In this document: piece after piece, positions 10,295-33,864 of the stretch | Layout: the number at the start of each line of letters is the position of its first letter | Numbering within the stretch: the first letter of the stretch is position 1 | Origin: Candidatus Staskawiczbacteria bacterium RIFCSPHIGHO2_02_FULL_42_22 | Lineage (GTDB): Bacteria; Patescibacteriota; Minisyncoccia; Minisyncoccales; Staskawiczbacteraceae | DNA: 33,864 nucleotides | NCBI GenBank assembly: GCA_001820175.1 | Contig: MHOT01000005.1 | Coordinates: forward strand, 1 to 33,864 | Direction: 5' to 3' | Translations under genes and position numbers: made by a program | Notes under the pieces: generated by a model | Told to the model about the DNA's origin: nothing | The model's input: the letters and a program-made list of their open reading frames with translations, nothing else | Database searches by the model: none

Positions 10295-10387
10295 GATGCG
10301 ATGCCAATATGCGAATGCATACTAATAATACCAATACGGAAACGTTATTCGTATAATTAGTATGAATTAGTATATTAGAATCGCATT
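10295..10387. repeat. Interspersed palindrome (ATGCGAT...ATCGCAT), uninterrupted copy
   Basis: ATGCGATGCCAATATGCG on the left and TATATTAGAATCGCAT on the right flank ACTAATAATACC / TTAGTATGAATTAG words. An inverted second copy at 33091-33360 is split by a foldback element, making this the intact reference. Confidence 0.85.
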
Positions 10388-16163: not shown

Positions 16164-17513
16164 TTACGGCACCAATCTTTCCGAAACCAGTAAACCGCCT
16201 TCGCTTAACAGGTATAACTTTTTATCCTGCTGATTAAAAAAGATGTCAGGGCTTTTTATGTCAATTAAATTCTCATCTGTCAGCAATGCTTTTTGCGGCA
16301 ACGTTACGGTATTTACGTTTCCGCGGGTGTCGATTTCAGAAATAACAATAGCGTCTCTTAGGGTAAAAATAACGTAATCGTTTCCCAGCCACTGAGCTTC
16401 GTTAATAGTGTCGGAAAATCTATTTAAAAATACTGCCGCTGGGTTTTGCATATGTGTCTTTGACAGTAATATTTCATGGTCGTTTTGGTATAGAATTTTT
16501 TGGCCATCGGGCGAAGTTATTATTTCATGAACGGAGCTGTAAAAGTTTTTAAATGCTTCCGATTCACTATCCAGTAAAAATAGCGACTGGTTTTCCTGCA
16601 AAAAAGTCATATCGGCTCGCCTCAATATTTTATAAGCCGCCTCGGTTTTAATGGGGAAGGGTTTTTTGGTTAAGGTATTTATTACTATGCCCCTGGTGGT
16701 TGAGGTATATAAAAATCCATCCTGCGATAACCAGCTAATACTATTATTTGCCACGTGCCAGGCGGCAATATTTTTTATTAAAGGAAGCGTTTGTTGATTG
16801 GAATACAGATTTTTGTTTTTAACAAAAAATATTTCATTAGGATTTTCCGGATTAAAAGAAGCGTCCTCCGCCTTAGTTAGCAAGGCAAGCACAGTAATTT
16901 TTGGGTTTTGCGAAACCGATGTTACCAAAAAATAATTGCTCCCCAGTCGCACTAATGTGCGGCTTGAATCGCCCGACCACGCTACGCTGGAAATGTTGCC
17001 AGTGGCGCCAAAAAGCAGGTCTTCTGTTTGATTATTTTCAAGATGCACTAATTGATAATTGATTTTTTGTCCGATTACGATTTTAAGTAAGATGTTTTTT
17101 TCATCGGGCGAGGGATAAAATTCTTGAACGTTATTTTGCAATAAAGTAAAGCGCGGTTGCTGTTTCATTAATATTACGTTTTCTAGTTTGGTAACCGATT
17201 GGTCCAGGACTTCTAAGTTTTTTTGGTAGTCAAAATAACCGTCTTTTTTTATGGTTACGGTATGCGGTCCGGGAAGAAGATTTTGCCGAAAAACAGAAGG
17301 AGAAAACAGTCCTGTAGTTTGGCTGGCAAGCGAATCAATGGTAATGGTTGCTCCCTGGGGCAAGGCCCGTACATACATTCCGCCCGTGGCCGTTATGTTA
17401 AACCGTCGTATGTCAATGCGGTATCCCAGCGAATAGAGTATAATGTAGGGCGCAATAACCACAAATAATGCCAGACAAATCAAAAATACAATAAATCGGG
17501 TTTTTCTTGTCAT
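16164..17513 (-). CDS. Membrane-anchored PEGA-domain protein
   Basis: 449 residues. An N-terminal membrane anchor (FIVFLICLALFVVIAPYIIL) is followed by a PEGA module: GGMYVRALPQGATITIDS to LLPGPHTVTIKKDGYFDY. The rest (about 120-449) is rich in short beta motifs such as FYPSPDEKNILL, VAWSGDSSRTLV and ITSPDGQKILY, which look like a beta-propeller. An extracellular structural or sensing role is inferred; the function is unknown. The start codon abuts the end of foldback element A (17515), so its upstream region is now the element arm. No clear Shine-Dalgarno is present. Confidence 0.7.
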   Translation of the reverse strand: MTRKTRFIVFLICLALFVVIAPYIILYSLGYRIDIRRFNITATGGMYVRALPQGATITIDSLASQTTGLFSPSVFRQNLLPGPHTVTIKKDGYFDYQKNLEVLDQSVTKLENVILMKQQPRFTLLQNNVQEFYPSPDEKNILLKIVIGQKINYQLVHLENNQTEDLLFGATGNISSVAWSGDSSRTLVRLGSNYFLVTSVSQNPKITVLALLTKAEDASFNPENPNEIFFVKNKNLYSNQQTLPLIKNIAAWHVANNSISWLSQDGFLYTSTTRGIVINTLTKKPFPIKTEAAYKILRRADMTFLQENQSLFLLDSESEAFKNFYSSVHEIITSPDGQKILYQNDHEILLSKTHMQNPAAVFLNRFSDTINEAQWLGNDYVIFTLRDAIVISEIDTRGNVNTVTLPQKALLTDENLIDIKSPDIFFNQQDKKLYLLSEGGLLVSERLVP

Positions 17514-17514
17514 A

Positions 17515-17898
17515 ATAGATAGAATATTCCAGAATCGGACTTAAGGCCTCGTCCGTAAATAACATACAAGTTTTTCGCCAAGATGTCTGTCGCCTTGGCT
17601 CAAAAAAATGTGAGGCATAATAAAGTTATGCCGAGCATTTTTTGGAGCCAAGATGGCGGGCAGATTGGATGAAAAAGTGTATGTTATTTACGGACGAGGC
17701 CTAAGACCTAGAACATTTGGCAATATTGGTTGTCTTGGAGTCAAGACGCGAGGGTAATGTGTCGCAACAAATTCGCCCCGTCTCCAAAAAATTTACGAGG
17801 CGTAGCCGAAGCTACGGCGAGTAAATTTTTTGGGAAAGACAGTCAAGATTGGCAAATGGGCAGGTTCTTGGAGTCCGATTCTGGAATGTTTTATCTAT
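17515..17898. mobile_element. Foldback element A (384 bp), interrupted by element A1
   Basis: The ends ATAGATAGAATATTCCAGAA (left) and the complement of ATAGATAAAACATTCCAGAA (right) are inverted. Inside are secondary arms CATTTGGCAAT...TGTCTT / AAGACAG...ATTGGCAAATG and an apex hairpin CCAAAAAATTTAC ... GTAAATTTTTTGG with GCGTAGC / GCTACG. Removing the nested A1 (159 bp) leaves about 225 bp of simple foldback. No ORF. Confidence 0.8.
17544..17702. mobile_element. Foldback element A1 (159 bp) nested in element A
   Basis: 24-bp perfect terminal inverted repeats begin AGGCCTCGTCCGTAAATAAC (17544-17567 and 17679-17702). The interior is also folded: CTTGGCTCAAAAAAATG / CATTTTTTGGAGCCAAG and apex GGCATAA-TAAAG-TTATGCC. 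It separates CTTA from AGACC in the stem of element A. Its end matches the start of the partial element at 33774. Confidence 0.85.
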
Positions 17899-17941
17899 AA
17901 GCCGTATTCTATCAAAAATAGCCCTTTTTTCAATGATGACT

Positions 17942-18122
17942 ATAGATAAAACATTCCAGAATCGCCCTGATAACCTATAAAAATTGCGCCTCGGGGATGT
18001 TTTTCCCTTAAAAAATTCTCGATGCAGCTACGGCTGCATCTTTGGTTTTTTAAGCTCCAAAACACCCCGATGCATCAATTTTTCTGGCGATTCCAAGGGC
18101 GATTCTGGAATGTTTTATCTAT
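17942..18122. mobile_element. Foldback element B (181 bp)
   Basis: 27-bp perfect terminal inverted repeats begin ATAGATAAAACATTCCAGAA. Inner arms AAAAATTG...CGGGG / CCCCG...CAATTTTT and apex GATGCAGC-TACG-GCTGCATC lie between. The ends are shared with element A, 43 bp to the left, but the interior differs. Confidence 0.85.
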
Positions 18123-18125
18123 ATG

Positions 18126-33090: not shown

Positions 33091-33360
33091 TGCGATTCTA
33101 ATATACTAATTCATACTAATAATACTAATGCGAAAACGTTATTTGTATCATTATGGACATCACATCCAGAAACCGCACTTAAGTTGCCGACGGTTTGGCA
33201 ATCTTGGGCGGCTTGGAGCAAAAAATTTGTGAGGCCTAGCCGTAGCTACGCCGAACAAATTTTTTGTGAAAACTGCCCAAGATTGGCAAATCCGGCAAGA
33301 CTTGGAGTGCGGTTTCTGGATGTGATGTCCATAGTATGCATTCGCATATTGGCATCGCAC
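33091..33360. repeat. Second copy of the ATGCGAT palindrome, split by element C
   Basis: The left part (33091-33152) and right part (33333-33360) match the reverse complement of 10295-10387, for example GCGATTCTAATATACTAATT and AGTATGCATTCGCATATTGG. The foldback element C lies between them. Confidence 0.85.
33153..33332. mobile_element. Foldback element C (180 bp)
   Basis: 28-bp perfect ends begin ATGGACATCACATCCAGAAA. Inner arms GGTTTGGCAATCTTGGGC / GCCCAAGATTGGCAAATC and apex CAAAAAATTTGTGAGGC ... GCCGAACAAATTTTTTG with CTAGC / GCTACG. Interior and CATCCAGAA end resemble element A. Confidence 0.88.
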
Positions 33361-33769: not shown

Positions 33770-33773
33770 TATT

Positions 33774-33864
33774 AGACCTGTCCCTAAATAAGATTTGTTA
33801 CGAAAATTACAAATTTTGAGCTGGAAATTTGATAGAATTTTTCGGCTTGCCCATAGGCCCGCCG
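33774..33864. mobile_element. Partial foldback element E, cut by the window edge
   Basis: The left end AGACCTGTCCCTAAATAAGA resembles the A1 end AGGCCTCGTCCGTAAATAAC. The interior shares CAAATTTTGAGC and TGATAGAATT with element D. The right half lies outside the window. Confidence 0.6.

Follow-up and report, generated by a model that had tools for sequence, protein, structure and literature searches.

Nested MITEs of two families, one within the stem of the other, in the genome of a Patescibacterium

Correia (NEMIS), ERIC and RUP elements are small palindromic MITEs with TA termini, and IS630-Spn1 has been proposed as the mover of RUP (PMC2229807). One family of elements from Candidatus Staskawiczbacteria bacterium RIFCSPHIGHO2_02_FULL_42_22, here represented by elements A, B and C, resembles these in size (about 100–200 bp), long inverted repeats, TA termini and a mostly intergenic location; it differs in having 28-bp ends that are perfect or nearly so, and the likeness claimed is one of layout. 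Another family, represented by element A1, shares its end sequence and a 3-bp TNA/TAA duplication with the ISAzo13 family, from which it differs in its length of 157 bp, its full-length palindromic structure and its lack of a transposase gene. The words nested, ISAzo13 and IS630 are absent from a 2024 review of prokaryotic MITEs (PMC10969869), and no literature report of MITEs in Patescibacteria or the candidate phyla radiation was found; coverage of the literature was partial, so this lends little weight to novelty. The nested MITEs described here are real, and are a fresh example, in a Patescibacterium, of a known element type.

The window, i.e. the whole 33,864-nucleotide stretch of DNA analysed, is contig C5 of a 30-contig, 821-kb (0.82-Mb) genome, and its features are collected in Table 1. 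Among the congeners compared is Ca. Staskawiczbacteria RIFCSPLOWO2_01_FULL_38_12b (MHPA01 records; hereafter G010).

Table 1. Positions of the elements, their parts and an empty site in the window.
Feature	Position	Strand	Evidence
Element A: TA-target foldback MITE, TATAGATA-type end, two inserts	17513..17899		Inverted repeats, folding, copy alignment
A, left terminal inverted repeat	17515..17541	+	Inverted-repeat search, 93% complementary
A, right terminal inverted repeat	17872..17899	-	Inverted-repeat search (arm found: 17872-17898)
TAA target-site duplication, left copy	17542..17544		Flank comparison
Element A1: ISAzo13-type MITE, 157 bp, ends GGCCTCGTCCGTAAATAACATAC	17545..17701		Folding, flanks, other copies
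TAA target-site duplication, right copy	17702..17704		Flank comparison
44-bp hairpin insert, inner stem of A	17741..17784		Further copies in C-type, A1-type and REP-like hosts
Element B: A-like end sequence, different core, uninserted 183-bp unit	17941..18123		Inverted repeats, folding
Element C: 182-bp TA-target foldback MITE, uninterrupted layout	33152..33333		Inverted repeats, folding, family copies
Empty paralogous copy of the C insertion sequence, single TA	10297..10384	-	Joined-flank match

Inverted-repeat arms were recovered for A, A1 and C, the foldback elements of an earlier note on this DNA, including those of A1 (17544-17620 and 17626-17702, with ends perfect over 24 bp, as stated there) and of C (33152-33179 and 33306-33333), and folding lay far beyond that of shuffled sequences (z = -22 for A with A1 inside, -17 for A1 alone, -14 for C and -13 for B). 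The limits required adjustment: the bounds given for A (17515-17898) described its arms but not its true extent, and those given for A1 (17544-17702) located the element but were each one base too wide. Similarly, A1 does lie in the left stem of A, but the junction is not CTTA/AGACC; since TAA is present on both sides of A1, the unfilled site was ACT-TAA-GACC. The length of A (387 bp) is the sum of a 183-bp foldback unit, a 44-bp hairpin and 160 bp of A1 plus TAA; A had been taken to carry A1 alone, and the hairpin had been overlooked.

With A1 and one TAA removed, A aligned over its full length to C-type and A-type copies. Its closest uninterrupted relative is a G010 copy (L068), which agrees with A in its end and in which CTTAAGACCT is unbroken; the uninterrupted form (ACTTAAGACC) persists in that congener. 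A-like elements without A1 (L068, L073, L081, L052, L053 and L054) occur in both G010 and this genome, and the empty site is exact. The proposal that A was a C-like element that later received A1 is supported, with the refinement that C belongs to a sister subfamily of A whose end sequence has diverged. At 17511-17514, element A adjoins the start codon of a minus-strand PEGA-domain gene (16164-17513), whose leader would consequently consist of the element; in G010, the conserved start of the ortholog is present without A. The G010 intergenic region orthologous to the A and B site measures 139 bp and holds neither element.

The family of A, B and C comprises about 40 elements with ends of the form TATRGA... 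and a TA target, and is constant in length at 182–183 bp save for inserts and truncations; C-type copies carrying only the small hairpin measure 227–228 bp (L045, L047, L053 and L054). When the flanks of C were joined with one TA, they matched an uninterrupted repeat that exists elsewhere in the window (Table 1). Joined flanks of L036 likewise matched an empty copy with a single TA, and those of L033 and L049 matched empty copies one base off within the dinucleotide. Alignment of empty and filled sites, proposed earlier as a check, thus yielded precise target duplications. The C site is element-free in nine congeners. One copy (L053) is chimeric, its two ends being different and its arms mismatched. 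At another locus (L035, 2284-2679), an element has been duplicated in tandem along with its 32-bp flank, which leaves two identical C copies with the duplicated flank between them.

Units of the A1 type are about 157 bp long, with ends GG(C/G)CTCGTNCGTAAATAAC. The earlier note had named two outcomes that would count against its account, i.e. that A1 has no separate copy elsewhere or that A and A1 always occur together; A1 is found without A at two further places in this genome (C10:24255, 95%; C13:36771, 84%) and at seven or more in G010, and each of A and A1 exists without the other. Identical TNA flanks (TAA, TTA or TCA) were seen in 17 of 18 A1-type elements, the lone exception being L044, whose flanks do not match. 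A1-type elements (L064, L071, L088, L065, L069, L070 and L082) are often found where an open frame ends; the TNA target can itself serve as stop codon, or a stop is provided by the element's own TAA, 14–15 bases in.

Nesting is not confined to A. A second, independent nest on contig C21 (365 bp in total) consists of a 183-bp B-type unit with a GGGCGC-type TNA element inside it (179 + 3 bp), and the A1 copy on contig C13 sits within a GGGCGC-type element. The small hairpin (AGACGCGAGGCGTAATTTGTCGCAACAAATTCGCCCCGTCT, 44–46 bp) occupies one inner position common to A- and C-type elements, and is hosted also by one A1-type element, L071 (202 bp instead of 157), and by REP-like palindromes; its copies are 17741-17784, L045, L047, L052-L054, L071 and L056-L062, and no target duplication was seen around any of them. 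Compared by layout and not by sequence, it is like repetitive extragenic palindromes in being a short hairpin with many copies, found within other palindromes, and unlike them in that no Y1 transposase was found in this genome.

Both families are short, have terminal inverted repeats and no coding capacity, and occur as many dispersed copies with target-site duplications and empty sites (TNA for the A1 type, TA for the A/B/C type). Based on the copies, duplications and empty sites, both were classed as MITEs, i.e. non-autonomous DNA transposons. A Pfam scan of 30 window open reading frames, all long ones included, detected no transposase, in agreement with what had been claimed for the window. 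For A1, a scan of 84,980 genomes with the end pattern gave matches in 12 stretches, one of which belongs to a Treponema element (L125) whose end, GGGCTCGTCCGTAAATAAC, equals the G010-type A1 end over 19 bp; the window copy is 1 base off. The gene of this element encodes an ISAzo13 transposase (NF033519, E = 2e-165; PF07592, E = 6e-132), and its flanks are TCA/TAA; ISAzo13 elements on Streptomyces and Mesorhizobium plasmids have TAA duplications and related GGGC-type ends. PF07592 was found in none of 148 genomes (this one, G010 and 146 other relatives), although the same search does detect the domain in the Treponema genome. For the transposase encoded elsewhere that the earlier note proposed to look for, matching ends were seen in distant genomes only, and no ISAzo13 transposase was found in this genome or its 147 relatives. 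Since PF07592 is absent from the genome and, like NF033519, from A1 itself, A1 is at most a non-autonomous ISAzo13 derivative.

Repeats are the usual places for contig breaks, and as this assembly is fragmented and 95% complete, absence of a transposase from the genome is unproven. The window end (33772-33864) bears TTAGACCTGTCCCTAAATAA, the terminus of another MITE/IS family with near-identical ends on an IS5-like transposon (L078) in G010, and the contig may break at a repeat of this type. The first 1,218 positions (1-1218) hold seven 153-bp tandem repeats inside a long open frame with PKD and peptidoglycan-binding domains. Roizmanbacteria, Gottesmanbacteria and Microgenomates (L122, L123, L126, L127, L129 and L130) have the A1-type end on short units of roughly 75–105 bp, which begin TAAGGGCTCGTNCGTWAATAAC and contain a second inverted repeat internally; these are a candidate wider MITE family of the candidate phyla. 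Searches of four genomes from this group found no PF07592.

For the A/B/C family, no autonomous element with the same end was found in 13 congeneric genomes. The IS630 family has a TA target, as A/B/C does, and the ends of the copy on contig C30, which holds the one intact IS630 transposase found here, begin TATAG; the rest of its end (TATAGCCTGTTAAAAACAAAATGTCGC) does not match that of A/B/C, so membership of IS630 is not shown. As sources, IS982-like L076 and IS630 L080 were rejected for ends too unlike those of A/B/C or A1, and IS5-like L078 for ends insufficiently close to either, its end (TAGACCTGTCCCTAAATAAC) resembling that of A1. Neither type of end was seen in the viral contigs searched, nor were C relatives among the plasmids searched. 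Apparent solo ends in G010 proved to be mostly paired after all, with a mutated partner.

Taken together, we consider it probable, at roughly 88%, that A/B/C and A1 are two MITE families, each mobilised in trans by a DDE transposase of its own, and that A is a C-like unit plus the 44-bp hairpin plus A1. Units of about 182 bp would insert into TA, and units of about 157 bp into TNA, duplicating the target as ISAzo13 elements do. A C-like unit would have gained the hairpin and, separately, A1 would have entered a TAA just inside its left end. The mover of A1 would be an ISAzo13-type transposase that has since been lost or is missing from the assembly, and that of A/B/C a TA-specific transposase. 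Observed directly were stand-alone copies, duplicated targets, sites with and without an element, and the agreement of A1 with ISAzo13 in ends and duplication; judging from the first three, both families would have been able to move, as the earlier note held. That A and A1 form a single composite element, a notion suggested by their adjacency and joint fold, is already refuted by the existence of each without the other and by the TAA duplicated at the junction. Dispersal by a Y1 transposase of the IS200/IS605 or REP type, acting on single-stranded DNA, would suit complete hairpins, and Y1 transposases are present in 9 of 13 congeners, but Y1 enzymes make no target duplications, whereas TA and TNA duplications were seen on A, B, C and A1, and this genome yielded no such enzyme; we regard this route as very improbable for the two families. 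It is a possible one for the 44-bp hairpin, which lacks a duplication.

Somewhat less improbable, though still unlikely, is that selection on the transcript preserves these hairpins as structured RNA or as regulatory signals (terminators, processing sites), with dispersal incidental. Copies are mostly intergenic (34/37 of the A/B/C type and 13/13 of the A1 type), and the stems are kept almost completely paired: 97.6% of stem cells pair in the A1 family, where 21 of 64 pairs change on both sides, and 97.7% in the C family, where 31 of 66 do so, values reached by 0 of 500 shuffles of the 3' letters. Because relatedness of copies inflates such counts, nearest-neighbour copies were compared (excluding L084, whose row in the C alignment is in reverse orientation), giving 18 compensated double changes for A1 and 33 for C, where independent change would predict about 3.1 and 2.4 double changes, compensated or not. 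Element ends must co-evolve with their transposase; inner helices, too, change in pairs in both families. Against the RNA explanation, precise TA or TNA insertion with duplications denotes transposition, whatever the later function, the chimeric L053 has mismatched arms, and no Rfam family scored above its gathering threshold; the sub-threshold matches were mostly to eukaryotic microRNA models, as for any long hairpin, and were rejected as an identity. Moreover, transversions, which can arise without a G-U step, are involved in 16 of the 33 paired changes that separate close C copies; this fits a hairpin in which one arm serves as template for the other, selection being the alternative. Within the two-family reading, the palindromes would be kept up by such copying or by selection for the fold.

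A homologous tip of 58 nt is common to the A1-type copy L065 and C (score 56, against 26 for the highest of 500 shuffles), although the two elements differ in ends and targets; the tip is not in every A1-type copy, L066 being without it. Together with the two-ended chimera L053, this indicates that cores and ends have recombined, perhaps through nesting of the kind seen in A, where the insert lies just inside an end. We tentatively suggest that these palindromes may be modular, one hairpin core having come to lie within two sets of ends, TA-type and ISAzo13-type, that belong to unrelated transposase families, perhaps by way of such nesting, with hairpin-templated arm copying keeping them nearly perfect; this has perhaps one chance in a few of being right, and if so, each copy would drift in sequence and yet stay an almost perfect palindrome.

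MITEs are numerous in this 0.82-Mb genome, nested in one another and persisting where their transposase was not found, and the fossil nests give a time order of insertions. Paired-arm drift makes hairpin-templated correction and RNA selection testable against each other as the keeper of MITE palindromes.
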